DNA of 64,000 nucleotides, taken from Microlunatus flavus. Lineage in GTDB: Bacteria; Actinomycetota; Actinomycetes; Propionibacteriales; Propionibacteriaceae. Each line of letters opens with the position of its first letter. Positions within the stretch are counted from its first letter, which is position 1. The stretch covers positions 186,001 through 250,000 of the forward strand of contig NZ_FOFA01000005.1 of NCBI RefSeq assembly GCF_900110855.1, in the 5' to 3' direction. Made by a program: the position numbers and the translations under genes. This document shows positions 2,026 to 63,042 of this stretch, one piece after another. Under the pieces are notes generated by a model. The model was not told where the DNA came from, did no database searches, and worked only from the letters and a program-made list of their open reading frames with translations.

Positions 2026-3030
2026 ATGACGAGTCCGGCAGCCACGGCGACCGGTCGTGCCGCTCCCCCGCGCGAACGGACCGCACCCGGGACGGCGTCG
2101 TCCGCGCCCCGCTCGAGACGCCGGGCGCGGCAGCGCATGAGCTCCGCCGAACGCCGCCGCCTCCGCACGGGGCTGCTCTTCGTGTCCCCGTGGATCGTCG
2201 GCGTGCTGGCCTTCGTGATCTACCCGCTCGTCTACTCCTTCGTCATCAGCCTGACGCGCTACTCGGGCATGCAGACGCCGACCTTCGTCGGGTTCCAGAA
2301 CTACGTCGCGGCCTTCACCGACCCCCTCGTGCGCACGTCGACGGGCAACACGCTCTTCTACGCCGGGCTCGCCGTGCCGGTCGGCCTCGTCGTCGCCGTG
2401 GTGCTGGCCCTGTGCATGAACCGCAACGTGCGCGAGGTCGCCGTCTACCGCGCCGCGCTCTACGTCCCCTCGCTGGTGCCGGCGTTCGCCCTCGCGTTCA
2501 TCTTCGCGGTCTTCGTGAACCCGCAGTTCGGCCTGGTCAGCCGCCTGCTCGCCCTGACCGGCCGGCAGAACGTGGACCTCCTGCAGGACCCGACGACGGC
2601 CAAGATCGTCATCGTCACGATGGCTCAGCTCGGCGCGGGCAACGCGGCGCTGATCTTCCTCGCCGGCCTGCGGAACATCCCCACCACGCTCTACGAGGCC
2701 GCCCGCGTGGACGGCGCCGGGCGCTGGAAGCAGCTCACGTCGATCACGCTGCCGCTGCTCAGCCCGGCCATCCTGTTCAACCTGATCACCGGCATCAGCG
2801 GCGCGCTGCAGGTCTTCACCGAGGCGTACGTGCTGACCAACGGCAAGGGCGACCCCGACAACGGGACGTTGTTCTACATGCTCTACCTCTACAAGAACGC
2901 CTTCTCCTACGCCTCGCTCGGCTACGCCTGCGCGCTCGCGGTGCTGCTCTTCGTCGCCGGGATGATCTTGTCCCTGCTGGTCTACGTGCTGTCTAGGCGG
3001 CTCGTGCACTACGACGTGGCCGCCGGATGA
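2026..3030 (+). CDS. Sugar ABC transporter permease (MalF type)
   Basis: A 334-residue inner-membrane permease. A charged cytosolic tail of about 45 residues precedes six hydrophobic segments, the first being LLFVSPWIVGVLAFVIYP. The EAA loop that contacts the ATPase reads EAARVDGAGRW near residue 226, followed by LPLLSP, as in carbohydrate (CUT1) permeases. The ATG at 2026 is preceded by a strong GAGGAGG ribosome site; a longer frame from 1948 is rejected for lack of one. It overlaps the next permease by four bases (ATGA). No ATPase gene accompanies the operon, so a shared MsiK-like ATPase elsewhere is likely. Confidence 0.9.
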   Translation: MTSPAATATGRAAPPRERTAPGTASSAPRSRRRARQRMSSAERRRLRTGLLFVSPWIVGVLAFVIYPLVYSFVISLTRYSGMQTPTFVGFQNYVAAFTDPLVRTSTGNTLFYAGLAVPVGLVVAVVLALCMNRNVREVAVYRAALYVPSLVPAFALAFIFAVFVNPQFGLVSRLLALTGRQNVDLLQDPTTAKIVIVTMAQLGAGNAALIFLAGLRNIPTTLYEAARVDGAGRWKQLTSITLPLLSPAILFNLITGISGALQVFTEAYVLTNGKGDPDNGTLFYMLYLYKNAFSYASLGYACALAVLLFVAGMILSLLVYVLSRRLVHYDVAAG

Positions 3031-3962
3031 CCGCCGTCCTGGACCCGCGCGCCACCGCAGGGCCCGAACCGGCGCCGTCCGGAAGGTCGCGGCTGCGCCC
3101 GAGCCGGTCGACGGGCCGCGCGCCGGACGGGAGCACGTACGGCGGCTGGTCGGCGGTGCTCGTGCGCGTGGTGATGATCGCGCTCTGCCTGCTGTTCCTG
3201 CTGCCGCTCTACTGGATGGTCGCGAGCTCGCTCAAGACCAACGAGGAGATGGCGACCTACCCGCCGTCGTGGTGGCCGGCGGTCCCCCAGCTCGGCAACT
3301 ACACCGACGCGGTCAGCACGTTCCCGTTCTGGACGATGTTCGCGAACTCGGTGATCATCACCGTCGCCTCGGTGGTGTTCGCGGTCGTGTCGAACTTCCT
3401 CGTCGCGTACGGCTTCGCGTGCGTCGAGTGGCCGGGGCGGGACAAGCTCTTCTACGTCGTGCTCGCCACCCTGTTCCTGCCGTTCCCGGTGACGCTGATC
3501 CCGATGTTCGACCTGTTCGCCAACCTCGGCTGGGTCAACACCTACCTGCCGCTGATCGTGCCGCACCTGTTCGCGTCGGCGTTCTACACGTTCCTGCTGC
3601 GCCAGTTCCTGCTGCAGGTGCCGAAGGACATGCTCGACGCCGCCCGGGTCGACGGGGCCGGCGAGTGGCGGATCGCCTGGCGCCTCGTCTTCCCCTCCGC
3701 GCTGCCCGCGCTGACCGCGGTCGCGATCTTCTCCGCCGTCGCGGCCTGGAACGACTTCCTCGGGCCGCTGGTCTACCTGCAGGACACCAAGGTGCAGACG
3801 CTGTCGGTCGGGCTGCAGTACTTCCGCTCCACCCAGACCGAGGACCTGCAGTACAACCAGCTGATGGCGGCGTCGGTGCTCGTCGTCATCCCGCTGGTGG
3901 TCCTGTTCTTCGTCTTCCAGCGCTACTTCCTGCGCGGGATCTCGCTGGGAGGGTTCAAGTGA
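3027..3962 (+). CDS. Sugar ABC transporter permease (MalG type)
   Basis: A 311-residue partner permease. After a Pro/Arg-rich N-terminus it has six membrane segments (first: VVMIALCLLFLLPLYWM). The EAA loop is DAARVDGAGEW near residue 204, followed by LVFPSALPAL, and the C-terminus FQRYFLRGISLGGFK is typical of the MalG/CUT1 family. The start codon overlaps the previous stop (ATGA) and its own stop overlaps the next gene's GTG, so the three genes are translationally coupled. Confidence 0.92.
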   Translation: MTAVLDPRATAGPEPAPSGRSRLRPSRSTGRAPDGSTYGGWSAVLVRVVMIALCLLFLLPLYWMVASSLKTNEEMATYPPSWWPAVPQLGNYTDAVSTFPFWTMFANSVIITVASVVFAVVSNFLVAYGFACVEWPGRDKLFYVVLATLFLPFPVTLIPMFDLFANLGWVNTYLPLIVPHLFASAFYTFLLRQFLLQVPKDMLDAARVDGAGEWRIAWRLVFPSALPALTAVAIFSAVAAWNDFLGPLVYLQDTKVQTLSVGLQYFRSTQTEDLQYNQLMAASVLVVIPLVVLFFVFQRYFLRGISLGGFK

Positions 3963-5326
3963 GCGGCGTGACCGTCAGCCGGCGCCGCTTCCTCGGTGGC
4001 GCCGCCGCGCTCGGGACCGCCGCGGGCCTCGGCGGGCTGGCCGGCTGCAGCCGGGGCGAAAGGCCCGCCGACGAGCTGCTGCTGTGGGGCGTCAGCGGCG
4101 ACCAGGTGCCCAACCAGCAGAAGGTGCTCGACGGCTTCACCGCCGCGCACCCGGGCGTGAAGGTCGTCGCGCGGAGCGTCCCGAGCGCCGTCGACGGTGA
4201 CGCGACCCCGGTGATCACCGCCGTCCGGGGCGGCGACGCGCCCGACGTCTGGTACATGGACCGCTTCACCGGCGCGCAGTACGCGGCGATCGGGCTGCTC
4301 GAGCCGATCGACGACCTGATCAAGGAGTTCGGCGACGAGGGCATCACCGACGACTACCTGCGCTTCGGGGTGAACGAGCTGACCTACCAGGGCCGGCTCT
4401 ACGGGCTGCCGGTCGGGACCGACGTCCGCGCGCTGTACTACAACAAGACGCTGCTGCGTGACGCCGGCGTCGACCTCGACGAGCTCGACCCGAAGAACGG
4501 TCCGCTCACCGTCGAGCGCGTCTTCGAGCTCAGCGGCAAGGTCACCAAGAAGGACGCGCGCGGCAACTACACGCAGATGGGGCTGGTGCCCTGGCTCGAC
4601 CAGGGCTGGGGCTACACCTGGTCGATCGGCACCGGCGCCGTCTACTTCGACGACCGTGCGTGCGGCCTGGACCTGACCGCCGCGCCGGTCGTGGCGGCGT
4701 TCCAGATGCTCGCCGACTGGGGCCGCGACGCCGGGCACAGCCAGGTCAACGCGTTCACGAACTCCTACCAGCCGCCGACGAACGCGGCCCCCTCCCAGAG
4801 CGCCTTCCTCGCGGGCAAGACGGCCTTCACGGTGCAGACCTCGACGACCGTGTTCGGCCTGAAGAAGTACGCGCCCGACCTGGAGTACGGCTTCACGTTC
4901 CTGCCCGTGCAGAAGGCCGGCGACCAGCCGTACACGTGGTCCGGCGGCTTCTCGGTCGTCGCCCCCAAGGGGTCGCGGATGACCCGCGAGGTGTGGGAGC
5001 TGATGAAGTTCTACGGCGGCAAGCCGGGCCAGCAGATCTTCTCCCCCGCGACGAAGTCGCTGCCGACGCTCAAGTCCCTCTTCGACGAGCGGTCGCTGGC
5101 CGACATGAAGCCGTTCATCGACCAGCTCGAGTACTCCACGTCGCGACCCCCGATCCCGGTCAGCTCGCTGTGGTGGGACGCGCTGGTCCAGGTCCACAGC
5201 GCGATGAAGATCGGTTCGCAGACCCCGGCCTCGGCGCTCGAGCGCGCGCAGGCACGGGTGGGCCCGCAGATGGAGGCGTACTGCCCCTTCACCATGCCCG
5301 AGGGCTACGGCCAGAAGGGCCTCTAG
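3959..5326 (+). CDS. Sugar-binding lipoprotein of ABC transporter (Tat type)
   Basis: A 455-residue extracellular solute-binding protein of the carbohydrate family. The N-terminus SRRRFLGGAAALG is a twin-arginine motif and LAGC is a lipobox, so it is probably exported folded and lipid-anchored. The mature part shows LLLWGVSGD, FTAAHPGVKV, DVWYMDRFTGAQYA and GLPVGTDVRALYYNK, typical of binding proteins for sugars. The GTG at 3959 lies five bases after GGGAGGG and overlaps the permease stop by four bases; GTG 3968 is an alternative. The specific sugar cannot be read from sequence. Confidence 0.88.
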   Translation: MSGVTVSRRRFLGGAAALGTAAGLGGLAGCSRGERPADELLLWGVSGDQVPNQQKVLDGFTAAHPGVKVVARSVPSAVDGDATPVITAVRGGDAPDVWYMDRFTGAQYAAIGLLEPIDDLIKEFGDEGITDDYLRFGVNELTYQGRLYGLPVGTDVRALYYNKTLLRDAGVDLDELDPKNGPLTVERVFELSGKVTKKDARGNYTQMGLVPWLDQGWGYTWSIGTGAVYFDDRACGLDLTAAPVVAAFQMLADWGRDAGHSQVNAFTNSYQPPTNAAPSQSAFLAGKTAFTVQTSTTVFGLKKYAPDLEYGFTFLPVQKAGDQPYTWSGGFSVVAPKGSRMTREVWELMKFYGGKPGQQIFSPATKSLPTLKSLFDERSLADMKPFIDQLEYSTSRPPIPVSSLWWDALVQVHSAMKIGSQTPASALERAQARVGPQMEAYCPFTMPEGYGQKGL

Positions 5327-34595: not shown

Positions 34596-36092
34596 TCAGC
34601 GGTCGGTCGGCGCCCGCATGACGCGGCCCACGGTCGTGGCCTTCTGGCGCACCGTGCCACCGAACTGCACGCCGCCGCACTCCGGGGGCCCGTCGGACGC
34701 GAACGGCACCGAGAAGTCGCCCGTCCGCGTGTAGGTGACCGCCGTGCCCTTGCTCGTCCAGCCCGGGTCGGTCCCCAGCCCGACGGTCTGCCCGATGACC
34801 GACGCCAGCTTGAGGTCGTACGGGCGGCCCTTCTGGGCGGCCGGCTTGGTGACGGTCTGGCCCAGGGCGTTGACCAGGAGGCTGCACGGCAGCGCACGGA
34901 GGTCGGAGAGCCGGTTGGCGGAGACGTCGAGGGAGCTCAGCGACGGCGGCGCCGTGAACCCGCGCAGGCTGCTGATCTGGTCGTTGCTCAGCTGCAGCGT
35001 CTGCAGCGCCGGGAAGGAGCCGAAGCCCGCGAGCGAGGTGACGCGGCTGTCCTGCACCGACAGGTACGACAGCCCGGGCAGGCGGCCGAGCGGGCTGAGG
35101 TCTGCGCCGTCGACACCGCTCAGCACGACGCTGCCCAGCTGCTGCAGCCCGCTCACGCCGGCCACGTCCTTGAGCCCCGCGGTGCTGACGACCAGCGAGC
35201 TGAGGTCCGTGGAGGAGGCGAGCGCGTCGAGCGACGAGAGGCGTACGCCGAACACGCTGAGCTCGGTGAGCGCGGGCTTGCCGGCGAGCACGGCGCCGTC
35301 GCCGCCGGCGACGTTCAGCGAGAGCGACTCCAGCTGCGCGAGGGGCGCGAGCGCGGAGACGTCGGTCGCGGCGGCCTGGACGTCGAGACGGGTCAGCCCG
35401 GTCAGGCCGCGCAGCGCGGACAGGTCGCGGACGTCCGGCGTGCCGAGGGTCAGCTGCTGCAGCTGCGTCAGCGCGGCCACGGCCGAGACGTCGACGGGCC
35501 CGTCCTGCCGCACGTCGAGCCGGCGCAGCGCGGTCAGCGGGCGCAGCGGCTCGAGGGAGGTCCAGGTGCCGCCGCCGACGCGGAGCGAGCGCAGGTTCGT
35601 CAGCGACGCGAGCGGCGCCAGGTCGGCGACCGGGTTGTCGGACACGTCCAGGTTCGTGAGGCCGGTCAGGCCCTCCAGCGGCGCCAGGTCGCCGATGTGG
35701 GCGCCCGGCACGGAGAGGTCGCGCAGGCCGGTCAGGCCCGCCACCGGCGCGAGGTCGTCGACACCGCTCGAGCCGGAGAGGTCCAGCGAGCTCAGGTTCG
35801 TCAGGGCCTGGGCACCGCCGAGCCCACCCACCGGGACGAAGTCGCACAGCAGCGAGGTGACGGTCTCCGCCTGCGCGCGCGTCACGGGGACGTCGGAACG
35901 CTGCCCGAGCGTGCCGGCCACGCAGCGGCGGAAGCCGGCGTCGGTGAACGACACGTCGTCGGCCGCAGTGGCCGTGGCGACGGAGAGGGCGGACAGCCCG
36001 CAGGCCAGGAGCAGGGCGGTCAGGCCACGACGAGCGTGTCGGACGAGGACGGTCTGCTGCTGGCGACGGGAAGCGGGGGATCTTCTCGGCAC
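34596..36092 (-). CDS. Secreted leucine-rich-repeat protein
   Basis: A 498-residue exported protein. Residues about 20-44 (GLTALLLACGLSALSVATATA) form the signal peptide. From about residue 80 to 400 there are some 14 leucine-rich repeats of roughly 22 residues (LTGLTNLDVSDNPVADLAPLA, LTQLQQLTLGTPDVRDLSALRG), like internalin-type LRRs. The last ~100 residues, with a Cys and a TYTRTGDFSVPFASDGPPECGG stretch, may be a small beta domain. A TAAAAT box at 36105-36100 sits about seven bases before GTG 36092, suggesting a leaderless mRNA. The 3' end is nine bases from the convergent mutarotase-like gene. Partner unknown. Confidence 0.85.
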   Translation of the reverse strand: MPRRSPASRRQQQTVLVRHARRGLTALLLACGLSALSVATATAADDVSFTDAGFRRCVAGTLGQRSDVPVTRAQAETVTSLLCDFVPVGGLGGAQALTNLSSLDLSGSSGVDDLAPVAGLTGLRDLSVPGAHIGDLAPLEGLTGLTNLDVSDNPVADLAPLASLTNLRSLRVGGGTWTSLEPLRPLTALRRLDVRQDGPVDVSAVAALTQLQQLTLGTPDVRDLSALRGLTGLTRLDVQAAATDVSALAPLAQLESLSLNVAGGDGAVLAGKPALTELSVFGVRLSSLDALASSTDLSSLVVSTAGLKDVAGVSGLQQLGSVVLSGVDGADLSPLGRLPGLSYLSVQDSRVTSLAGFGSFPALQTLQLSNDQISSLRGFTAPPSLSSLDVSANRLSDLRALPCSLLVNALGQTVTKPAAQKGRPYDLKLASVIGQTVGLGTDPGWTSKGTAVTYTRTGDFSVPFASDGPPECGGVQFGGTVRQKATTVGRVMRAPTDR

Positions 36093-37127: not shown

Positions 37128-38204
37128 TCAGCGCAGCTGGGCGACCATCGGGCAGCGGAACGCGTCCGGGGCAGCAAGGCCGACCTGGTTGAGATGGCGG
37201 GCCACGATGGCCCACGCGCTGAGCAGGTTCGTCTCGGTGTAGGCGACGTCGTTCGCCCGGCAGTGCTCGCGCACGAGGCGCCGGGCGGCGGCCAGATGGG
37301 GCCGCGGCATGCTCGGGAAGAGGTGGTGCTCGATCTGGTAGTTGAGCCCACCCATGAGGACGGTGGCCCACCACCCGCCGGAGACGTTGCGCGAGGTCGC
37401 GACCTGCTTGGACAGGAAGTCGAGCTTGACGTCGCGCGGGACGACGGCCATGCCGATGTGGTTCGGGGCGAACGAGGCACCCATGTAGAAGCCGAACACG
37501 GCCAGCTGCACCCCGAGGAACGCGAAGCCCAGGCCGAGCGGCAGGAGCCAGAACAGCAGGGTCAGGTAGACCGCGAACCGGGCGGCGAGCGCGACGAGCT
37601 CGAGCTTGCGGCCCGGCAGGTGGCGGTTGGTCCACAGGCTCTGCGTCGAGCGGACGTGCAGGTTGACACCCTCGCCGAGCAGCAGCGGGAAGAAGAACAC
37701 GCCCTGGTGGCGGGTGAACCATGCCATCGGGCCGCGACGGGTCGCGGCGTCCTCCTCCACGAAGGAGAAGGTGTCGATCGCCAGGTCCGGGTCCTTGCCG
37801 AGCTTGTTCGGGTTGCCGTGGTGGCGGGTGTGCTTGTCCATCCACCACGAGTAGCTGATGCCGACGCCGACCACGGCCAGCCACCAGCCGGCGCGGTCGT
37901 TGGCTGGGCCGGAGGCGAGGACCTGGCGGTGCGAGGCCTCGTGGCCGAGGAAGGCGAGCTGGGTGAAGACCACCCCGAGCGCTCCGGCCACCAGCAGCTG
38001 GAGCCAGGAGTCGTCCAGCAGGACGAGACCCGTCGTCGCGCCGGCGAGCGCGAGCACGAGCGCGGCGAGGACCAGGGCGTAGAACCAGCGCGTCCGGTCC
38101 TGCAGCCCGAGTGTGCGGCTGGCCTGGGCGAGCGCGGTGTAGGTCTGGGTGGTGGCGGCGGCCGACCGTCTCGGCCGGGTCGGCGACGGGAGGGTGAGGC
38201 TCAT
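37128..38204 (-). CDS. Membrane fatty-acid desaturase (acyl-CoA/acyl-lipid)
   Basis: A 358-residue di-iron membrane desaturase. Three histidine boxes are visible: GHEASH (near 84), DKHTRHHG (near 125) and YQIEHHLFPS (near 290), with four hydrophobic segments between them. The GASFAPNHIGMAVV block is shared with the second desaturase at 40.8-41.9 kb, so the two are paralogues. The family introduces a double bond into long acyl chains using oxygen and an electron donor. The upstream small membrane protein gene is probably co-transcribed, with a strong hairpin in between. ATG 38204 has only a weak ribosome site. Confidence 0.9.
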   Translation of the reverse strand: MSLTLPSPTRPRRSAAATTQTYTALAQASRTLGLQDRTRWFYALVLAALVLALAGATTGLVLLDDSWLQLLVAGALGVVFTQLAFLGHEASHRQVLASGPANDRAGWWLAVVGVGISYSWWMDKHTRHHGNPNKLGKDPDLAIDTFSFVEEDAATRRGPMAWFTRHQGVFFFPLLLGEGVNLHVRSTQSLWTNRHLPGRKLELVALAARFAVYLTLLFWLLPLGLGFAFLGVQLAVFGFYMGASFAPNHIGMAVVPRDVKLDFLSKQVATSRNVSGGWWATVLMGGLNYQIEHHLFPSMPRPHLAAARRLVREHCRANDVAYTETNLLSAWAIVARHLNQVGLAAPDAFRCPMVAQLR

Positions 38205-39542: not shown

Positions 39543-39992
39543 CCACCGGCCACGACGGCCCATCGATGGCCCGCCGACGGCCCACCTCGGCTCCGCGTGG
39601 CTCTGCCGCACCCGCCGGCCCCGCGGCCGCGAGCCGGCACCCGAGGGCGCCGAGTGTCGCGCGACACCTCCCACGTCGTCCTCGACGTGCTTCGCCACCT
39701 CGGCCGCGGGTAGGACAGGGGCACGAGCAGCCGCGGGGTGCACCACCGTGCTGCTCCAGGTCCGCGCCGTTGAAACCACAGCGCGCAGGCTGCACGGTGA
39801 CGGCCCCCTCCGCGGACGTAGCGCGGAGGGGGCCTTCCGTCATTATGGTCCGCGCGACCGATCGTCGGGGGTGCCGATCGCGAGGACGCTCACCGCACCG
39901 CTCCGCTGGCGTGCTGGCGCGACGTACGGGCTTGGTCACGACTGCTGCACGCGCGCTAGGGTCGGCGTCCACGACCGGTGAGGGGCGGGCAG
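39543..39992. other. Intergenic interval with hairpin, possible small RNA
   Basis: About 450 bases without a credible protein. It holds a very stable hairpin at 39802-39834 and, upstream, weaker inverted repeats such as CCGT...ACGG (39766-39798). A TAGGGT -10-like box at 39957-39962 probably serves the ANTAR gene to the right. Confidence 0.5.
39802..39838 (+). terminator. Perfect 13-bp hairpin
   Basis: GGCCCCCTCCGCG (39802-39814) pairs with CGCGGAGGGGGCC (39822-39834) around a seven-base loop, followed by TTCC. It could end the TetR transcript or be the 3' end of a small RNA. Confidence 0.6.
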
Positions 39993-40778
39993 GTGGCGTC
40001 AGAAGAGCAGCCGGACGAGGCCCTGCGCAGCGCGGAGCAGCGTGAGGCGGAGGACGACGACCTCGGGGCGAGCCTCCGGGGCCTGTCCGTGCTGTCGTCC
40101 GCACGGTTGCCGCTGACGGAGGTGCTGACCCGCGTCGCCCGCTACGCGGTGCAGGCCATCCCCGGCGCGGACGGTGCCGGCCTGACGCTGATCGAGCAGC
40201 ACCGGTCCGACACCATCGTGCAGACCGCGGACTTCGTCGGCGAGGTCGACGCGATCCAGTACGGGCTGGGCGAGGGCCCGTGCATCACCGCCGCCCGGGA
40301 CGGGCTCACGGTGGTCTCCGGCTCGCTCGGGGGCGACCCCCGCTGGCCCCGCTTCGGCGGCGGGGTCGCCCGGCTGGGCGTGCACAGCGCGCTCTCGCTG
40401 CCGCTGGTCACGCCCGACGAGGTGGTCGGAGCGATGAACGTCTACGCGTACGCGAAGCACGCGTTCGACGAGCGGGCCGCGGGGCTGGGTGAGATGTTCG
40501 CCGTGCCGGCCGCCGTGGCGGTGCAGAACGCCCGGGTGCTCGAGGACGCCCGACGACTGGCCGAGCGCCTGCAGCACGCCCTCGACGAGCGGATGGTGAT
40601 CGAGCGGGCGGTGGGGATCGTGATGAGCCGTTCCGGAGTCGAGGAGGGCGAGGCCCGGTCGCGGCTCACCCGGCTGAGCCAGCACGAGCACGTGAAGCTC
40701 GTCCAGGTCGCCCGAAGCCTGGTCGACGAAGCCGCTCGCCGCGCCCGCAGCCGGCCCCACGACCGACCCCTCGGCTGA
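39993..40778 (+). CDS. GAF-ANTAR regulator 1
   Basis: A 261-residue protein with an N-terminal GAF sensor (residues about 40-185: VARYAVQAIPGADGAGLTLIE, YGLGEGPCITAA, ALSLPLVTPDEVVGAMNVY) and a C-terminal ANTAR RNA-binding domain (LQHALDERMVIERAVGIVMSR, SRLTRLSQHEHVKLVQVARSL). ANTAR proteins bind two-hairpin RNA targets and prevent transcription termination. GTG 39993 follows AGGGG by seven bases; GTG 39978 is in frame but has no ribosome site. First and most divergent of six such genes here. The ligand of the GAF domain is unknown. Confidence 0.9.
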   Translation: MASEEQPDEALRSAEQREAEDDDLGASLRGLSVLSSARLPLTEVLTRVARYAVQAIPGADGAGLTLIEQHRSDTIVQTADFVGEVDAIQYGLGEGPCITAARDGLTVVSGSLGGDPRWPRFGGGVARLGVHSALSLPLVTPDEVVGAMNVYAYAKHAFDERAAGLGEMFAVPAAVAVQNARVLEDARRLAERLQHALDERMVIERAVGIVMSRSGVEEGEARSRLTRLSQHEHVKLVQVARSLVDEAARRARSRPHDRPLG

Positions 40779-40805
40779 CCCCCGGGGACCCGGACGTCTC
40801 GGCCG

Positions 40806-41948
40806 TCAGGTCGCGCGACGCTGCGCGACCAGCGGGCAGAGGAAGGGGTCCTTGCCCTTGAGACCCACCGTGTTGAGGTAGCCGACGACGCTGCGGTAGG
40901 ACTCCCAGAGCGTGGTCTGGGTGTACGGCACCCCCTCGGCTGCGCAGTGCGCCCGTACCAGCGGAGCGATGGTGCGCAGGTGCGGACGCGCGACGGAGGG
41001 GAACAGGTGGTGCTCCACCTGGTAGTTGAGCCCGCCCATGAAGACGCTCATCAGCGGCCCTCCGCTGATGTTGCGGCTCATCAGCACCTGCCGACGCAGG
41101 AAGTCGAGCTTCAGGCGCGACGAGACCAGCGGCATGCCGATGTGGTTCGGCGCGAACGCCGAGCCCATGTAGAGCCCGAACACCCCGATCTGCACCACGA
41201 CGAACACGAGGGCCTTCTCGGGCGGCAGCACGGCCAGGACGAGGGCGAGCAGCCCACCGAGGCGCAGGGTCAGCAGGGTCGTCTCGAGGGCACGTCGCTC
41301 GACCTTGCCGCGACCGGCGACGCGCTTGACCGCCTCGACGTGGAGCGACAGCCCCTCGAGCAGCAGGAGCGGGAAGAAGTACCAGCCCTGGTGCGCCACC
41401 AGCCACCGGAACACGGGGGTGTCGCGCCGGGTCGCCATGGCCGGCGTCATCGCGACGGCGGCGATCTCGATGTCGGGATCGACGCCCTCCTTGTTGGGAC
41501 CGGAGTGGTGCCGGGTGTGCTTGCTCCGCCACCAGCCGTAGCTGATCCCGACGAAGAGGTTGGCGAGGACGAGGCTGGCCCCGTCGTTCCACCGGCCCGA
41601 CCGGAAGATCTGCCGGTGCGCGGCGTCGTGGCCCAGGAACGCGATCTGGGTGAGCACGACGGCCAGCACGGCGGCGTTGGCCAGCTGCCACCACGAGTCG
41701 CCGAGCCGCACGAAGCCGGCGACCCAGGCGCCGAGCACGACGACGGCGCCGACGAGCTTGGCCCAGTAGTAGCCGTAGCGGCGACGCATGAGACCCAGCT
41801 CGGCCACCTGCCGGGTGAGGGCGGTGAACGAGCTGCCGGCCTCGCGCGGCGACCGCGCAGCCGTGGCCGGCGCCGGTGGCGCGGACGCGGGTCCGGGCAG
41901 CGTCCGGGAGACGGGAGAAGGGATGGTCCGGGTGACGAGGGAGGTCAA
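40806..41948 (-). CDS. Membrane fatty-acid desaturase, second paralogue
   Basis: A 380-residue desaturase with the same organisation as the protein at 37.1 kb: GHDAAH (near 106), SKHTRHHSG (near 145) and YQVEHHLFPS (near 309), and the shared GSAFAPNHIGMPLV block. The N-terminus is longer and Pro/Ala/Ser-rich. The start is a TTG at 41948 without a clear ribosome site, so the true start could be inside, for example at the internal Met near residue 54. It is convergent with GAF-ANTAR regulator 1. The two desaturases may differ in chain length or position. Confidence 0.88.
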   Translation of the reverse strand: MTSLVTRTIPSPVSRTLPGPASAPPAPATAARSPREAGSSFTALTRQVAELGLMRRRYGYYWAKLVGAVVVLGAWVAGFVRLGDSWWQLANAAVLAVVLTQIAFLGHDAAHRQIFRSGRWNDGASLVLANLFVGISYGWWRSKHTRHHSGPNKEGVDPDIEIAAVAMTPAMATRRDTPVFRWLVAHQGWYFFPLLLLEGLSLHVEAVKRVAGRGKVERRALETTLLTLRLGGLLALVLAVLPPEKALVFVVVQIGVFGLYMGSAFAPNHIGMPLVSSRLKLDFLRRQVLMSRNISGGPLMSVFMGGLNYQVEHHLFPSVARPHLRTIAPLVRAHCAAEGVPYTQTTLWESYRSVVGYLNTVGLKGKDPFLCPLVAQRRAT

Positions 41949-42333
41949 GAGGGAGGCCTGTTCGGCGGTCTTCCCAGGACGGGGCTCAGGTTGTCCGCGA
42001 GGCGCGGGCAGGACGCACGGCGACGGGTGTCACGGCGGTCCCGGTCCTGAGTGGCTGCTCGGGCAGCGCCACCAGCCTATCCGCGCGAGACAGGTCGCTC
42101 GGGGTGCTCAGGAGCGGTCCCGTCGCATTCGCGTCACGGTGGGGCCCGCGCAAGCGCTGGTCCGGCGCGAGGGGCGCATTGGTACCGGTCTCGCACGATC
42201 GCCGACGAACCACTAGCCTGGTCCTGCTGCACCAAGCAGCCGGTCTGGAACGTGCTCCGCCGCTCGACCCCGGGCCGCAGCGCACAGGACGCTCCCACCA
42301 GATCATCCGGGCAACGCCCACAGGGCAGGCCGC
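41949..42333. other. Intergenic interval before GAF-ANTAR 2
   Basis: 385 bases with no convincing gene. A TAGCCT box near 42213 could be the -10 element of the GAF-ANTAR 2 gene, giving a leader of about 110 bases. I see no strong hairpin or repeat. Confidence 0.4.
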
Positions 42334-43293
42334 ATGTCCCCCTCGCTCCTGTCCCTCGTCAGCGACGACGACAGCACCCCCTCCACCGACAGCGCACCGT
42401 CCACCGACAGCACCCGCCTTGCCGCGGCCCTCGCCGACCTGGCGGAGGTGATGCACACCGCGACCGGCACGCGCGCGCTGCTCGACGAGCTCGTCGCGGC
42501 GGCGCTGCGGCTGGTGCCGGGAGCGCAGGCCACGTCGATCATGCTCGTGGAGCGCCGCACGCTCGCCTCGCAGCACGCAAGCAGCCCGACGGTCGACCAG
42601 GTCGACGCCTACCAGCTGGAGCTGCGCGAAGGTCCGGGCCTCGACGCGGTCGCCCAGGCGCGGCCCGTACGCGTCCCCGACATGGGCCAGGAGCAGCGCT
42701 GGGCGACCTTCGCGCCGCAGGCACGCCTGCTCGGGGTCGTCAGCACGCTGTCCCTCCCGCTCCGGACCGGGACGACCGTCCTGGGCGTGCTGAACCTCGT
42801 CAGCCCGCGGCCCGCCGCCTTCGACGACGAGTCCGAGCGGATCGGCGTGCTGCTCGCCGGGCACGCCGCCATCGCGCTCGCCCACGCCCGCAGCGTCGAC
42901 AACCTCCGGCGAGCGGTCGCCGGCCGCGACCTCATCGGGCAGGCCAAGGGCCGGCTCATGGACCGCTACGGGCTCGACGAGGAGCGAGCCTTCGCGGTCC
43001 TGCGTCGCGTCAGCCAGAGCACCCACCGCAAGCTCCATGACGTCGCCCGCGAGCTCGCCACCACCGGAGGGCTCGCCGCGCTCAGGGAGCTCGAGGACGA
43101 GCTGGCGCTCGACCGCGCCGCGGAAGCCGGCGACCCTGACGACACCGCTGCCGAGGCCGACGCCGCCGCCGACCCCGGCGACGCCGCACCCGGTCCAGAC
43201 GCAGCCGGGGCCGTCGCCTCGGGCTCGCCCGACGCGGCAGGAGACGGGCCCGAGCCCGGTGAGGCTGCCACCGAACCCGCGCACCGCCTCTGA
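42334..43293 (+). CDS. GAF-ANTAR regulator 2, acidic tail
   Basis: A 319-residue protein: a short Ser/Asp/Thr-rich N-terminus with a repeated TPSTDSAPSTDS, a GAF domain (residues about 35-190: ALLDELVAAALRLVPGAQATS, LREGPGLDAVA, AFDDESERIGVLLAGHAAIAL), and an ANTAR domain (GRDLIGQAKGRLMDRYGLDEE, VSQSTHRKLHDVARELA). After the ANTAR domain is an unusual tail of about 65 residues made almost only of Ala, Asp, Glu, Pro and Gly. Its GAF and ANTAR parts are closest to regulators 3 and 4, suggesting local duplication. Confidence 0.9.
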   Translation: MSPSLLSLVSDDDSTPSTDSAPSTDSTRLAAALADLAEVMHTATGTRALLDELVAAALRLVPGAQATSIMLVERRTLASQHASSPTVDQVDAYQLELREGPGLDAVAQARPVRVPDMGQEQRWATFAPQARLLGVVSTLSLPLRTGTTVLGVLNLVSPRPAAFDDESERIGVLLAGHAAIALAHARSVDNLRRAVAGRDLIGQAKGRLMDRYGLDEERAFAVLRRVSQSTHRKLHDVARELATTGGLAALRELEDELALDRAAEAGDPDDTAAEADAAADPGDAAPGPDAAGAVASGSPDAAGDGPEPGEAATEPAHRL

Positions 43294-43301
43294 CCTGGCA
43301 G

Positions 43302-43640
43302 TCAGACGGGGAAACGGACGCCCGTGAGGTCCTCGGAGACCGCCCACAGCCGCTGCTGGATGGCCAGTTCGTAGGACAGCGGGCTGGACCTGACGACCCC
43401 GGGTTACCCCCGCGCCTCGCCCCTCCCGCCGGGACCGTCGCACTGCGCGCACCGACTCCAGCGACGTCAGGTCCAGCTCCTGCACGGTGACGTGCCCCCT
43501 GCTCGGGCCGCGGCGGCCTCACCCTCGTGACATCTCGGACGGCCAGCACGACGGACGCACCGTGCTGAGCGAGCACCCTGGCCGTCTCGAAGCCCAGTCC
43601 GGTGTTGGCACCCGTCACGACGTACGCGATTCGATCCCGC
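43302..43640 (-). pseudogene. Decayed short-chain dehydrogenase (retinol dehydrogenase-like)
   Basis: Pieces of one SDR lie in order but in different frames: RIAYVVTGANTGLGFETARVLA, then SVVLAVRDV; after a frame change VQELDLTSLESVRAVRR; and finally SYELAIQQRLWAVSEDLTGVRFPV and a stop. The cofactor TGANTGLG motif is intact, but the catalytic YxxxK core (some 170 residues) is deleted. An intact relative would have about 300 residues. The gene is therefore a pseudogene with at least one frameshift and a large internal deletion. Confidence 0.82.
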
Positions 43641-44004
43641 CCTCGCCGTCCTCCACCTGGACCTGGAGGACTCCCTCCGGCGGCGATCCGGTCGCTGGTC
43701 CTGGGGGCGCTCCCCGCCGCCGAGGTACGGGCTGCCGGGCGGACGACCCTGGAGCCGATCGGGCGCGCACCCTCGGCCGCTCTGAGCGGTCCGCGAACTC
43801 CCGGGGTCGCATCTCGCGCGGGTCCGTCGGCGCTCAGCCGCATCCACCCCGGCGACGTCGGTCGAAACATCGTCAGCCCCGACGAGGGGTGGCGTCGCGG
43901 GGCCCAGCACTCGTGTCGCGGTGGCTCGACGGGTTCAACAGCGCAGCACGGCGAGCCACCACGGGGGCAGGGGCGCCGGCAGCCGTCGCCGAGCACCGGG
44001 TGCG
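43641..44004. other. Interval with no recognisable gene
   Basis: About 360 bases between the SDR remnant and GAF-ANTAR 3. Reading frames here are Arg/Gly/Pro-rich and do not resemble known proteins. It is probably decayed sequence related to the adjacent pseudogene. Confidence 0.45.
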
Positions 44005-44766
44005 TCACTCCACGGGCTGCTCGAAGGCGTCGAACTTCCGCGTGGTGACGAGTTCCTCAGCCACGTCGTGGAGCTTGCGTCCGCTGTGCTGGCTCACCTG
44101 GACCAGCAGCCGGAAGGCCCCCTGGCTGTCGAGGTCGTAGCGCAGCATGAGCATCCCCTTGGCCTGGCCGATCAGGTCCCGGGTCCACACCGCCCGGTGC
44201 AGGTTGTCGACCTTCTGCGCACCGGAGAAGGCCACGGCCGCGTGCGAGGCGAACAGCAGCCCGACCTCCTCCGACTCGTCGTCGAACGCGTCGGCCTCAC
44301 GGCTGTAGAGATTCAGCGCGCCGAGGTTGTCGCCCTCGACGTAGAGCTGGAGCGACAGCATGCTCCTCGCACCCGCCGCGTGAGCGCGACGGGCGAACCG
44401 CGGCCAACGCTGCTCCGTGCTCATGTCGTCCACCCGGACCGTCTGCTGGTCGAACACGGCGTCGAGGCACGGGCCCTGCCCGGTCTCGCTCTGGATCTCG
44501 TCGACCACCTCGGGCAGGACGCTCGACGCGTGCCGTGAGGTCACGCGGCTGCGGCCGGTGACCATGCTGATCGAGCCGTCCTGGGTGCCCGGCACGAGAC
44601 GGACCGCGGCGGCCACGACCTCGTCGAGCATCGTGTCGGTGTCGTCCTTCGTCTCGAGCAGTCGAGCCAGGCTGCTCATCTCCTCGGCGACGCGCGCGCG
44701 GCTCCTGACGCGCGGTCTCTCCGCCGAGGACCCGCCGGCAGCGTCACGATCCGCCTGGTCTGTCAT
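44005..44766 (-). CDS. GAF-ANTAR regulator 3
   Basis: A 253-residue protein with a GAF domain (MLDEVVAAAVRLVPGTQDGSISM, TGQGPCLDAVFDQQTVRVDDM, LGALNLYSREADAFDDESEEVG) and a C-terminal ANTAR domain (TRDLIGQAKGMLMLRYDLDS, VSQHSGRKLHDVAEELV). ATG 44766 is chosen because GGAGA precedes it by six bases; an upstream GTG at 44805 would add 13 unlikely residues. It is the only member of the cluster on the minus strand, divergent from regulator 4 with a 324-base gap. Confidence 0.92.
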   Translation of the reverse strand: MTDQADRDAAGGSSAERPRVRSRARVAEEMSSLARLLETKDDTDTMLDEVVAAAVRLVPGTQDGSISMVTGRSRVTSRHASSVLPEVVDEIQSETGQGPCLDAVFDQQTVRVDDMSTEQRWPRFARRAHAAGARSMLSLQLYVEGDNLGALNLYSREADAFDDESEEVGLLFASHAAVAFSGAQKVDNLHRAVWTRDLIGQAKGMLMLRYDLDSQGAFRLLVQVSQHSGRKLHDVAEELVTTRKFDAFEQPVE

Positions 44767-45090
44767 CCGGTCTCCGGCATCTCGTTGTGTCCCCCTGTGC
44801 TGCATCCGAGGTGATCGTCGCGGAAGATCGCCGGTGCCGGCAACAGCCCGCCACTCGTGCGGGAGCCCCGCGACCGTGCGCAGAACTCCAGACGGTCCTC
44901 CTCGAGTCCCTCACACCGACGTGCGCCGGTCCGGGCGCATCCTTCCGGCCAAGGGATGGCATGATGGGCGCCACGGGTCAAACAGCGGCTCGTCCGGTCG
45001 TTCGCGCACCAATGACGGCGGGACTGCAGCCTCACCTCCTGGACGGCACCGCCCCGCAGGTCGCGCGCAGCCCGGGAAGGCGGCACGACG
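44767..45090. other. Divergent promoter region of GAF-ANTAR 3 and 4
   Basis: 324 bases with no gene. A CATGAT -10-like element near 44960 could serve the rightward gene. No clear palindrome is visible. Confidence 0.4.
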
Positions 45091-45861
45091 ATGACCGACG
45101 CCCACCACTCCAGCCCCCAGGGCGAGCCGTCTGCAGAGGACCACGGGACTGCGATCACCAACGTGCTCGCCGACCGCCTGGGCGGGCTCGCTCGGCAGCT
45201 CGAGGCCGAGGACGACCCGAGCAGGATGCTCGACGAGCTGGTCACCGCGGCTGTTGCGATCATCCCCGGTGTGGAGCACGCCTCGCTGAGCATGGTCTAC
45301 GCACGGCGAGAGGTCCGGTCGGAGCACCCGTCGAGCGACCTCCCGGCCGAGGTCGACGCCATCCAGAACACGGTCGGAGAGGGACCCTGCCTGGACGCGA
45401 TCTACCGGGAGCAGACCGTCCGGGTGCCCGACATGCTCCATGAGCCACGCTGGCCCCTGTTCGCGAAGCGGGCCCACGACGCGGGGGCGGGCAGCATGTT
45501 GTCGTTCCAGCTCTACGTCCAGGACGACAACCTCGGCTCGCTGAACCTGTACAACAGCCGCGCGAACGGTTTCGACGACGAGTCGGAGCAGGTCGGTCTG
45601 CTCTTCGCCAGCCACGCGGCGGTCGCGTACGCGGACGCCAAGAAGATCTCCGGCCTGACTCGCGCCCTGGCCAGCCGGGACCTGATCGGTCAGGCGAAGG
45701 GGATGCTGATGGAGCGCTACCGCCTCGACGCGGACCAGGCATTCGGCGTCCTGACCCGGGTCAGCCAGTCGACCCACCGGCCTCTCCGGGAGGTCGCCGA
45801 CGAGCTCGTCAGCAGCGGCCGCCTCCCCGAGCTCGGGCTGGGGCAGCAGGCCGAGAGATGA
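45091..45861 (+). CDS. GAF-ANTAR regulator 4
   Basis: A 256-residue protein closely similar to regulator 3: GAF motifs MLDELVTAAVAIIPGVEHAS, VGEGPCLDAIYREQTVRVPDM and LGSLNLYNSRANGFDDESEQ; ANTAR motifs SRDLIGQAKGMLMERYRLDA and VSQSTHRPLREVADELV. GGGAAGG precedes ATG 45091. The similarity of 3 and 4, back to back, suggests an inverted duplication. A signalling role through RNA antitermination is known for the family; the input is unknown. Confidence 0.92.
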   Translation: MTDAHHSSPQGEPSAEDHGTAITNVLADRLGGLARQLEAEDDPSRMLDELVTAAVAIIPGVEHASLSMVYARREVRSEHPSSDLPAEVDAIQNTVGEGPCLDAIYREQTVRVPDMLHEPRWPLFAKRAHDAGAGSMLSFQLYVQDDNLGSLNLYNSRANGFDDESEQVGLLFASHAAVAYADAKKISGLTRALASRDLIGQAKGMLMERYRLDADQAFGVLTRVSQSTHRPLREVADELVSSGRLPELGLGQQAER

Positions 45862-45946
45862 GCGTGCGGGCGAGCACTCCTGGGTCGCCGGTGATCCGAC
45901 ATGGTGCCCGCCGCCTGGCGGTCCGCGCCCCGCGCGTGGCCGGCGC

Positions 45947-46657
45947 GTGATGTCGATCGAGGCCTCCCTCGTCCAGGCGCTGGACGGCGGACGCGGGGCG
46001 GATGCGGCTGATCGGCTGTGCGAGGCGTGCGTCGCCCTGCTGTCGGTCGACGCAGCCGCGATCTCCCTCGTCTTCGACGGCGTCAACTCGGCCACCCTGG
46101 GCGGTAGCAGCGACGAGGCGCGGTTGTTCGACGAGCTGCAGTTCACCTTCGGGGAGGGCCCCTGCCTCGAGTCGGTGGCGACCCGTGCGCCGGTGCTCGC
46201 GCTGGACCTCGGCGCCGAGGTGGTCGCCGGCCGGTGGCCCGCGTACGGGCCCGCGCTCCTCGACCAGGGCATCGCCGGCGTGTTCGCGATCCCGGTGCTC
46301 ATCGCCGGGGAGTACGTCGGGGCGCTCGACCTCTTCCGCCGCCAGGTGGTGGCGCTGGACGGCCAGGACCTCTCGGGCGCGCTGGTGGCGGCCGAGCTGG
46401 CGGAGATGCCGCTGCTGGACCTGATCGCCGCGACCGAGCAGGACCCGCTCGAACCGGGGACGCCCGCGTGGACGGAGCTCGACAAGATCACCCGCGACGA
46501 GGTGAGCCAGGCCACCGGCATGCTCGTGGCCCAGCTCGACGTCGACCCCGCCCAGGCGCTCGTCCGGCTGCGGGCGCACGCGTACGCCACCAACCGCTCC
46601 GTGACCGCGGTCGCGCGGGACGTCCTCGACCGCCGGCTCCGGCTCGGTGCCGGATGA
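45947..46657 (+). CDS. GAF-ANTAR regulator 5
   Basis: A 236-residue protein with a GAF domain that lacks the long N-terminal extension of regulators 2-4 (CVALLSVDAAAISLVFDG, LQFTFGEGPCLESVAT, AGVFAIPVLIAGEYVGALDLF) and a C-terminal ANTAR domain (DEVSQATGMLVAQLDVDPAQALVRLRAHAYATN, in two blocks). It belongs to a different subgroup from 2-4. The start is GTG 45947 or ATG 45950; neither has a clear ribosome site. It is followed by regulator 6 after 61 bases and the two are probably co-transcribed. Confidence 0.88.
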   Translation: MMSIEASLVQALDGGRGADAADRLCEACVALLSVDAAAISLVFDGVNSATLGGSSDEARLFDELQFTFGEGPCLESVATRAPVLALDLGAEVVAGRWPAYGPALLDQGIAGVFAIPVLIAGEYVGALDLFRRQVVALDGQDLSGALVAAELAEMPLLDLIAATEQDPLEPGTPAWTELDKITRDEVSQATGMLVAQLDVDPAQALVRLRAHAYATNRSVTAVARDVLDRRLRLGAG

Positions 46658-46718
46658 CTGCACGCACCCCGCGTCTGGCCCCCGGCCGGCCCCACCTCCG
46701 CCCCGAAGGGACTTCCTG

Positions 46719-47471
46719 ATGGCCGACGATGCTCGTGAAGCACGCGTGCTCGGCGCCGTGGTCACCCTGGTCGACAACCTGCTGCAGGACTTCGACGTCG
46801 TCGAGCTGCTCACCGACCTCACCGAGCAGTGCGCGAACCTGCTCGATGTGTCCTCGGCCGGGCTGCTGCTGGCCGACGCGCGTGGCGGGCTGCACCTGAT
46901 GGCCGCCACCTCCGACCGCACCGAGGAGATCGAGCTGCTGCAGCTGCAGGCCGACGAGGGACCCTGCCTGGACTGCTACGCGACCGCGCAGCCCGTGTCG
47001 ATCGCCGACCTCTCCGTCGTGGGCGGACGCTGGCCGCGGTTCGTCCCCGCCGCTCGCGAGGCCGGATTCGCGTCGGTGCACGCCGTGCCCATGACGGCGG
47101 CCGGCAGCGCGCTCGGAGCCCTGGGCCTCTTCGGCACCCGACCCGGGGCGCTCAACGAGTCCGACCTCCTGGTCGCCCGCAGCCTCGCGCACGTCGCCAG
47201 CGTCGCCATCGTGCAGGGACACCCACCCACCCCGGAGACCGTCCTGCCGCGACTGCGGGCCGCACTGGCCAGCCACGTGGTGGTCGAGCAGGCCAAGGGC
47301 TTCCTCCGCGAGCGCCTCGACGTGACCGTCACCGAGGCCTTCGCCCTGCTCCGTCGCTACGCCCGCGAGCACGACACGCACGCGTCCGAGGTGGCGCGCC
47401 GGCTCATGTCGGAGCCGGCGGCACGGCCCCTGATCGTCGAGGCCATCGTCAGGCTGACCGCCGCCGTGTGA
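46719..47471 (+). CDS. GAF-ANTAR regulator 6
   Basis: A 250-residue protein. GAF motifs: LTDLTEQCANLLDVSSAGLLL, LLQLQADEGPCLDCYATAQPV, and GFASVHAVPMTAAGSALGALGLF; ANTAR motifs: SHVVVEQAKGFLRERLDVTV, then EAFALLRRYAREHDTHASEVA. ATG 46719 follows GAAGGGA by eight bases; a frame from 46647 would overlap regulator 5 and is rejected. It pairs with regulator 5 in one transcript. Confidence 0.92.
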   Translation: MADDAREARVLGAVVTLVDNLLQDFDVVELLTDLTEQCANLLDVSSAGLLLADARGGLHLMAATSDRTEEIELLQLQADEGPCLDCYATAQPVSIADLSVVGGRWPRFVPAAREAGFASVHAVPMTAAGSALGALGLFGTRPGALNESDLLVARSLAHVASVAIVQGHPPTPETVLPRLRAALASHVVVEQAKGFLRERLDVTVTEAFALLRRYAREHDTHASEVARRLMSEPAARPLIVEAIVRLTAAV

Positions 47472-47533: not shown

Positions 47534-47573
47534 CCCCTCGACCTCGTGGTCAGCCCCTCGACCTCGTGGTCAG
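47534..47573. repeat. Tandem duplication of 20 bases
   Basis: Two identical adjacent copies of a 20-base unit that begins CCCCTCGACC and ends TCGTGGTCAG (47534-47553, 47554-47573), with a shorter related GCCTCGAC directly after. Confidence 0.85.
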
Positions 47574-47642
47574 GGCCTCGACGCTCCCGCGACGGTCGAG
47601 CCCGACCGTGTCGACCCGCTGTTCGTTCCGTCGCGCACCCGT

Positions 47643-48060: not shown

Positions 48061-48460
48061 CGGGTGGGTCGCTGAGGCGAAGCGCATCGGCGGCGGGTGC
48101 GCGGTGCGCACCTCCTGCCTGGAGTGGGTCCTGCGCAGCGGAGCCGCCCACGGGGTCTTCGGCGGGCTCGACGCGGGAGAACGCACGTCGCTACGGCCGG
48201 CTCGCAGACGGCGCCGACCGGCACGGTGCACGTCAGCACGACGTCGGCGTAGGTGCGGGCGGTGCGGATGGTGGACCAGCGGCGTCCAGCACGAGGAACC
48301 CGTCGAGGGACACACCTCGATCTCGGTGCCGGGAGCGGCCGGACGAGGCTCCGGCAGGCAGGAACGAGCCCCCACGACCAACGGCCGTGAGGGCTCTCAT
48401 CTCTGTCAGGTCGCCGTCGACAGCTCGCGACGACCTCAGGGGTGGGGAGGGTGGGGTGGG

Positions 48461-48824
48461 TGGAGGTGGCGGGAATCGAACCCGCGTCCTTGGACAGCGA
48501 ACCAGGTCTTCTCCGGGCGCAGCTGGCTAGTCGTCTTCTCGGTCCCTGCGCTCGCGCCAGCACGTCGCAGACAGACCCAGTCTCAGAAAAGTCCCGGACG
48601 CACCCTGAGACACGGTGCGGCCAGCAAGTCCTCTAGATGAGGCCAGGTTCCGGGGCGAGGACAGCCTCGGTCTGACCCTTCGATCACTGTTTAGACAGCG
48701 AGAGCGAAGTCAGTGCGCTTAGAGTTGGCACTTGTTGGTTTCCAAGGGACATTAACGAGTTGACCTTGGATTCTCGGCCCGCTTCTCCTGGGACTACCGA
48801 CCCAAGTCGAAACCGATCACCCCC
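48461..48824 (-). ncRNA. ssrA: tmRNA
   Basis: A one-piece transfer-messenger RNA of about 364 bases. The 5' end GGGGGTGATCGGTTTCGAC and 3' end GGTTCGATTCCCGCCACCTCC pair into the acceptor and T arms; CCA is not encoded. The tag frame (48729-48691) encodes ANSKRTDFALAV and a TAA stop. tmRNA with SmpB rescues stalled ribosomes and marks the unfinished protein for proteolysis. The smpB gene is at 54.7-55.2 kb. Ending in LAV instead of the usual LAA is notable. Confidence 0.95.
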
Positions 48825-62602: not shown

Positions 62603-63042
62603 CGCAGCGGGCGGCCGTCCTCCCCGGGTTCGTCGGGCTCGTCGGGCTCCTCGGGCTCCGGCTCGCGGAGCTCCTCGATGCGGACGAAACGTTCCGCCGA
62701 CGCATCCCTGCGCAGCGGCCGGTCTCCGACCCAGATCAGCACGAAGGCGGCGAACGACAGTCCCAGCGCGAGCACGGGCCCGAAGACGAGGACGAAGACC
62801 AGCGCGAGCGCGAGGACGTCCAGGCCGAGCACGACGAGCGCGCCGCGCGGGGTGATGCGGCTGCGCCGGGCCCGCCAGGTGACGTACGCGACCCACGGGA
62901 CCATCGCCACGAGCGTGACCACGAGCGCGAAGCCCGACATCCCCGCCGAAAAGGCTCCGGCGACCAGCCGCAGCATGGCCACGAGCCCGATCGCCCCCGT
63001 CAGGACGCCGAGCGCGGTCCGGACGCCGAGCGTGGTGGTCAT
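62599..63042 (-). CDS. Small integral membrane protein
   Basis: A 147-residue protein with four hydrophobic segments (ALGVLTGAIGLVAMLRLVAG, FALVVTLVAMVPWVAYVTW, ALVVLGLDVLALALVFVLVFG, ALGLSFAAFVLIWVG) and an acidic C-terminus, EPEPEEPDEPDEPGEDG. I recognise no family. The acidic tail and the stop codon abut a dispersed repeat unit. It is 25 bases downstream of a conserved 100-residue gene on the same strand. Confidence 0.75.
   Translation of the reverse strand: MTTTLGVRTALGVLTGAIGLVAMLRLVAGAFSAGMSGFALVVTLVAMVPWVAYVTWRARRSRITPRGALVVLGLDVLALALVFVLVFGPVLALGLSFAAFVLIWVGDRPLRRDASAERFVRIEELREPEPEEPDEPDEPGEDGRPLR

Follow-up and report, generated by a model that had tools for sequence, protein, structure and literature searches.

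A conserved tandem pair of GAF-ANTAR genes within a lineage-specific cluster of six in Microlunatus flavus

The window considered here is a stretch of 64,000 nucleotides (nt) from Microlunatus flavus, an actinobacterium of the family Propionibacteriaceae (assembly GCF_900110855.1, contig NZ_FOFA01000005.1, positions 186,001 to 250,000). Within 7.5 kb it holds six open reading frames (ORFs), g1 to g6, each of which encodes a GAF domain and then an ANTAR domain in one protein, the composition of a GAF-ANTAR one-component regulator (Table 1). The last two, g5 and g6, are an old tandem two-gene unit that is kept across the class and beyond, and the six-gene set as a whole is mostly a lineage-specific gathering. 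All six proteins match a Pfam GAF family and ANTAR PF03861 above the curated cut-off, with PF03861 scores of 56.7, 72.7, 66.6, 73.7, 38.8, and 49.3 bits from g1 to g6. An NCBIfam scan of the same six proteins gives no family reaching its cut-off. The whole genome (4.79 Mb, 26 contigs) contains 14 ANTAR matches, 13 of them above the cut-off, and six of the 14 lie in the cluster.

Table 1. Features of the cluster and its surroundings, in positions of the window.
Feature	Position	Strand	Evidence and remarks
Leucine-rich-repeat protein	34596..36092	-	Its match to genome G001 marks the distal limit of the region in which that genome differs
Second membrane fatty acid desaturase (PF00487)	about 37128..38204	-	Outside the cluster, beyond a TetR gene; start chosen by visual inspection, at the first methionine of the desaturase portion
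g1, GAF-ANTAR type D, with valine in place of the ANTAR lysine	39993..40778	+	ORF, Pfam, tree; alternative start at an in-frame GTG at 39978
Membrane fatty acid desaturase (PF00487)	40806..41948	-	ORF, Pfam; inside the cluster, between g1 and g2
g2, GAF-ANTAR type A	42334..43293	+	Pfam, tree
Likely decayed short-chain dehydrogenase	43319..43708	-	Between g2 and g3; adh_short match below cut-off, frame broken
g3, GAF-ANTAR type A	44005..44805	-	Pfam, tree
g4, GAF-ANTAR type A	45091..45861	+	Pfam, tree
g5, GAF-ANTAR type B with an altered ANTAR domain, first of the conserved pair	45947..46657	+	Pfam, tree, model
g6, GAF-ANTAR type C, second of the conserved pair	46719..47471	+	Pfam, tree, model
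tmRNA gene	48459..48824	-	3' end toward the cluster

The six proteins belong to four types. In a tree of 109 rows, g2, g3, and g4 fall within one 13-row clade (98/98), which is type A, while g1 belongs to the type D clade and g6 to type C; the type B clade, which includes g5, has 17 rows (100/99). Pairwise identity is 46-55% within g2-g4 and 21-34% for the other pairs of the six. A sequence-only reading of the same window had described six such genes in one 7.5-kb cluster, with the first, fifth, and sixth as different subtypes, and the ORFs, the Pfam matches, and the tree agree with it. Of the motifs that it assigned to g2, g3, and g4, DLIGQAKG and FDDESE are present in all three, but EGPxLDA occurs only in g2 (EGPGLDA) and g4 (EGPCLDA), and g3 has QGPCLDA. 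Its two desaturase genes flanking the cluster were misplaced, as one is inside the cluster and only the other is outside.

Types B and C stand side by side in several distant genomes of the tree. Alignments of B and C were searched against 394 genomes of the class, with gene typing on stop-to-stop frames; ten of the 150 listed B rows were the same gene as a C match and were removed, leaving 140, and counts from the listed matches are lower bounds. Of the B matches at E<=1e-60, 54 of 58 are immediately followed by a C gene on the same strand, and a B gene immediately precedes 71 of the 78 C matches at E<=1e-90. Among the matches listed, 105 of 140 B and 105 of 150 C are in a tandem pair, with a gap between matches of -1 to 316 nt (median 59). 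These pairs, at least 105 in number, come from 89 genomes, 51 genera, and 24 families, and the only other B/C arrangement within 2 kb, among the matches listed, is found in G160. The window's g5 and g6 have the same composition, type B and directly after it type C on the same strand, with a spacing of 61 nt. The pair is present at differing sites in at least 8 of 20 genomes of the window's genus, counted over the part of their ANTAR loci that was fetched. Forty loci that were picked for holding the pair are excluded from this evidence. A phylum search of 246 genomes shows, outside the class, 10 tandem pairs, spread over 8 genomes and 6 families; G670 has a pair in the order C-B and G577 a convergent one, and 9 of the 19 B matches outside the class are not in a tandem B-C pair.

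Type A genes serve as the control. Only 1 of 80 type A loci has a typed tandem neighbour on the same strand, and 9 of 80 have any typed neighbour within 3 kb; these loci come from one protein search, and many are from relatives of Rhodococcus, Gordonia, Williamsia, and Mycobacterium. The claim of the sequence-only reading that most genomes scatter such genes thus suits type A, but not types B and C.

In family f5, represented by one genus, a type D GAF-ANTAR gene is convergent with type C in all five fetched pair loci (L255, L256, L257, L293, and L294), and D-B-C groupings therefore recur outside the window's genus. A similar small protein is encoded near the B-C pair in seven loci (L263, L265, L267, L268, L273, L277, and L292), and that of L268 is a STAS-domain protein. 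A cluster of short-chain dehydrogenase neighbours has scattered positions and was taken as chance.

The ANTAR domains of types B and C differ at some of the positions that touch RNA in EutV. Residues are numbered on EutV by subtracting 2 from the chain numbers of 6wsh_A, a numbering consistent with the residues that PMC8934654 names, and were counted over distinct ANTAR strings, 118 of type A, 79 of B, 76 of C, and 16 of D; these counts are partly self-selected, since the profiles that assign the types include the ANTAR domain. The lysine at 149 is found in 93/118 A, 0/79 B, 75/76 C, and 0/16 D. Position 172, which is the EutV residue inside the hexaloop according to the part of PMC8934654 consulted, is glutamine in A (104/118) and D (14/16), phenylalanine or tyrosine in B (77/79), and arginine in C (70/76). 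Glutamate at 160 is rare in A (6/118) and D (3/16), absent from C (0/76), and outside the eight commonest residues of B. Arginine at 168 is kept in B (77/79) and C (70/76). Neither g5 nor g6 has the whole EutV contact set (R142, K149, E160, Y164, R168, and M172): g5 retains R142 and R168 and has lost K149, E160, Y164, and M172, while g6 retains K149, an aromatic residue at 164, and R168, and has lost R142, E160, and M172. Type B is changed in a conserved way and is not decaying, because its own positions are strongly kept.

The AlphaFold models of g5 (pLDDT 89.7) and g6 (91.7) each predict a GAF part and an ANTAR part with three helices. The three-helix form of the ANTAR domain is thus indicated by the Pfam matches in all six proteins and by the predicted C-terminal helices of these two. 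Residues 167-178 of the g5 model, before the ANTAR domain, are below pLDDT 50. The 50 rows listed by Foldseek for g5 are a Nostoc response regulator and photoreceptor entries, none of them named ANTAR; this search was led by the GAF part and is uninformative on the ANTAR domain.

These residues admit the interpretation that type B does not bind RNA at all, and that its altered ANTAR domain sequesters or gates C as an anti-activator. The loss of EutV contacts favours it, as the lysine at 149 is missing from every type B string and an aromatic residue at 164, which with 149 is among the EutV contacts in the consulted part of PMC8934654, is present in only 17/79. On the other side, B keeps R168, the aromatic residue at 172, and G150 (79/79) like a binding surface, although a surface for protein contact would look alike. 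An anti-activator B is somewhat less likely than not; it is a version of the joint action of B and C proposed below, and the probabilities of the two overlap.

Desaturase genes are found near GAF-ANTAR genes beyond expectation. In the window, the desaturase inside the cluster is convergent with g1 at a gap of 27 nt, and its counterpart in G010 is 90.5% identical. Across the genus, 9 of 38 desaturase matches have a listed GAF-ANTAR gene within 2 kb (0.38 expected) and 6 of 38 have one within 500 nt (0.19 expected), though members of one genus are not independent. They stand beside type D (G000, G010, and G001), type A (G015), and B-C (G003, G012, and G016). In the class, 9 of 150 listed desaturase rows have a listed B or C gene no more than 2 kb away, against about 0.145 expected with 6.5 Mb assumed per genome. 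The desaturase precedes B in G191, G436, G332, and G223, follows C in G253, G129, and G397, is convergent in G239, and is 1.8 kb away in G189. The same-strand orders come from two genera of family f19 and from the window's genus, and the remaining two cases are in f37 and f15. A direct tblastn check gives a desaturase in 7/48 pair loci versus 0/80 type A loci; a first neighbour clustering had put desaturase-like genes in 11 loci, and only the seven confirmed are used. In locus L305 of G015, a type A GAF-ANTAR gene is convergent with a desaturase 74-76% identical to the window's (2815-3846 and 3900-5228). The link between GAF-ANTAR and desaturase genes looks real, but for a minority of pairs. 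The lipid remodelling that the sequence-only reading had suggested as an output gains independent support from this neighbourhood, within the same limit.

Two publications describe other GAF-ANTAR neighbourhoods. In one, nine Rhodococcus regions have a GAF/ANTAR gene close to alkB9, which encodes an alkane monooxygenase (PMC11854999); the other, a study of Streptomyces SCO7424, notes a GAF-ANTAR neighbour (PMC12838073). A literature search found, among the matches listed, no paper on tandem GAF-ANTAR pairs or on the desaturase link, with subscription journals mostly outside it.

The paired hexaloop hairpins that the sequence-only reading had proposed to search for are not enriched. The search covered the window and the leaders of typed genes, with the rest of the genome outside it. 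Under the strict dual AxxGxx rule, the window has no hairpin pair on the plus strand and one on the minus strand (near 62709), against 1.5 and 1.6 expected, and under the relaxed rule four and two, against 8.6 and 8.7. Two relaxed pairs are in the cluster, one inside g1 (40171) and one antisense to g4 (45769). The leaders, for which start sites are approximate, show under the strict rule a small excess in B (2/80 versus 0.4 expected), too few to build on. Under the relaxed rule they have 0 in A (3.4 expected), 3 in B (1.9), 2 in C (2.05), and 0 in D (0.35). In the B leaders of L224 (1333-2217), L269 (8966-9712), and L276 (9798-10604), a dual AxxGxx hairpin starts 4-16 nt upstream of the approximate start codon, in the region reported for actinobacterial ANTAR targets (PMC8164766); three cases are too few to judge. 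In the consulted part of PMC8164766, actinobacterial ANTAR targets often overlap the ribosome site and include lipid genes, and they were found only with a loosened model; the negative result for canonical targets is therefore weak.

The history of the cluster differs from that of the pair. In G010, the closest relative found, the same order of g1, the desaturase, g2, g4, g5, and g6 leads up to the tmRNA gene, and g3 is missing; the likely dehydrogenase remnant beside g3 aligns to nothing in the cluster of that genome. Protein identities to G010 are 86.2% for g1, 72.0% for g2, 85.7% for g4, 90.2% for g5, and 91.2% for g6. The corresponding dN/dS values are 0.060, 0.27, 0.098, 0.038, and 0.077 by YN00, and 0.18, 0.75, 0.28, 0.22, and 0.25 by NG86. 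They indicate constraint on g1, g4, g5, and g6, and much less clearly on g2, the least constrained of the five common genes. Another member of the genus, G001, matches both sides of the tmRNA locus and has no GAF-ANTAR gene there; 12.4 kb of the window correspond to 4.1 kb in that genome. G001, G006, and G002 match on the side of the tmRNA gene, and their match does not continue across the cluster. In the tree, the nearest row to g3 is a paralogue in the same genome (L001 on contig C17, 61%), g4 groups with a G001 gene at another site, and g1 with a G001 gene elsewhere. The genes g3 and g4 are each closer to relatives outside the cluster than to one another, and the tree does not support a simple local duplication as the origin of the cluster. 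The sequence-only reading had proposed tandem and inverted duplication, which agrees with the single clade of g2, g3, and g4 but not with the outside relatives of g3 and g4 or the separate clades of g1, g5, and g6. Duplication within the cluster is at best part of the story. The tmRNA-adjacent position suggests a spot of gene gain and loss, and tmRNA genes are a common site of gene gain. An integrative element targeted to the tmRNA gene was considered and set aside, as no exact 14-20 nt repeat of the tmRNA 3' end is present in the window; no integrase search was made. Downstream of g6, at 47536-47580, a unit of about 20 nt containing CCTCGACCTCGTGGTCAG occurs in two consecutive copies.

This history bears on a second explanation, that the six are independent one-component regulators, homodimers with their own signals and targets, which transfer and duplication have brought together next to the tmRNA gene. 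The G001 tmRNA locus without GAF-ANTAR genes, the g1 and g4 orthologues elsewhere in that genome, and the missing g3 of G010 are in its favour. The sequence-only reading had taken scattered orthologues in near relatives as the sign of unrelated genes. Such scattering applies to g1 and g4; the types of g5 and g6, in contrast, remain next to each other from family to family. The fixed order and close spacing of B and C over 24 families are hard to explain by independence, and the missing tmRNA 3'-end repeat speaks against a gathering at that gene. Independence of all six is rather unlikely. A local network that arose by duplication, in which regulators with overlapping RNA targets compete or hand over control, as the sequence-only reading had it, has the common clade and core motif of g2, g3, and g4 on its side, and is unlikely given the outside relatives of g3 and g4, the other types of g1, g5, and g6, and hairpins in the cluster not beyond chance.

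The explanation preferred here, with about an even chance of being right, is a lineage-specific GAF-ANTAR cluster that includes the old g5-g6 unit, in which B and C act together on RNA and a desaturase mRNA is one likely target. It starts from the gene order, the ANTAR signature of B, the constraint, and the desaturase neighbourhood, all of which are observed. In its favour, the distances of B and C over 58 pairs correlate with r 0.675, against a permutation maximum of 0.195. B and C are probably co-transcribed and would function jointly, probably in a hetero-oligomer, with each GAF domain probably sensing a small-molecule or redox signal. For reading RNA, C would bring an ANTAR domain with the usual lysine, and B a changed RNA-contact face that may read a second, different loop or restrain C. 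The pair would act after transcription start, by antitermination or a translation block, and the desaturase mRNA, and hence membrane lipid unsaturation, may be one target.

Several points weigh against joint action of B and C with a desaturase target. Unpaired genes make up 35/140 B and 45/150 C among the matches listed, and type C (12 rows) is on a weakly held branch (96/43). The correlation of B and C distances is not corrected for species descent, and the signature counts carry the self-selection noted above. Most pairs have no adjoining desaturase, and that of the window adjoins g1, 4 kb from g5-g6. Under the strict rule, the cluster contains no dual hairpin, and neither do the leaders of A (0/125, 0.6 expected), C (0/76, 0.2), or D (0/15, 0). 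The B-C heteromer itself is only probable, with gene order as its evidence.

A bolder form of the same proposal is that B-C would be the first two-subunit ANTAR system, an obligate heteromer that reads two different hairpin loops through the plug at 172, aromatic in B and arginine in C. Its asymmetric RNA site would be invisible to the dual-hexaloop AxxGxx model, and it would control the adjoining membrane lipid desaturase in several lineages. This form is quite unlikely.

To our knowledge, GAF-ANTAR proteins are common in actinobacteria, although few of their signals and RNA targets have been described. A fixed-order pair across 24 families is a strong hint of two-part devices. The type-specific loop-contact residue suggests why standard target models might miss these RNAs, and the desaturase neighbourhood points to an output that can be tested. 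The six-gene cluster matters less than the pair, because it is a lineage-specific gathering.

Among known systems, the proteins resemble PDB 6hmj, named as a putative PAS/PAC sensor protein, the solved structure whose sequence matches the ANTAR part best. It has, by its entry name, a PAS sensor and not GAF, and is presumably Nakamurella PAL, a PAS-ANTAR light sensor. EutV of Enterococcus faecalis, a response-regulator ANTAR antiterminator (PDB 6wsh and 6ww6), aligns with the ANTAR domains by profile and has the three helices predicted in g5 and g6. It has a receiver domain in place of the GAF sensor, and, in contrast to EutV, E160 is mostly replaced in all four types, K149 is lost in B and D, and position 172 is type-specific. 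NasR of Klebsiella, a NIT-ANTAR protein, is likewise a one-component sensor with ANTAR, and is dimeric and autoinhibited according to the consulted part of PMC7496416. Its sensor is a nitrate-sensing NIT domain, whereas here two unlike GAF-ANTAR proteins are encoded side by side. A further comparison is the study of actinobacterial ANTAR proteins and their target RNAs (Mehta and Ramesh 2021, PMC8164766), whose main parts describe no tandem pair, subtype signature, or desaturase neighbourhood.

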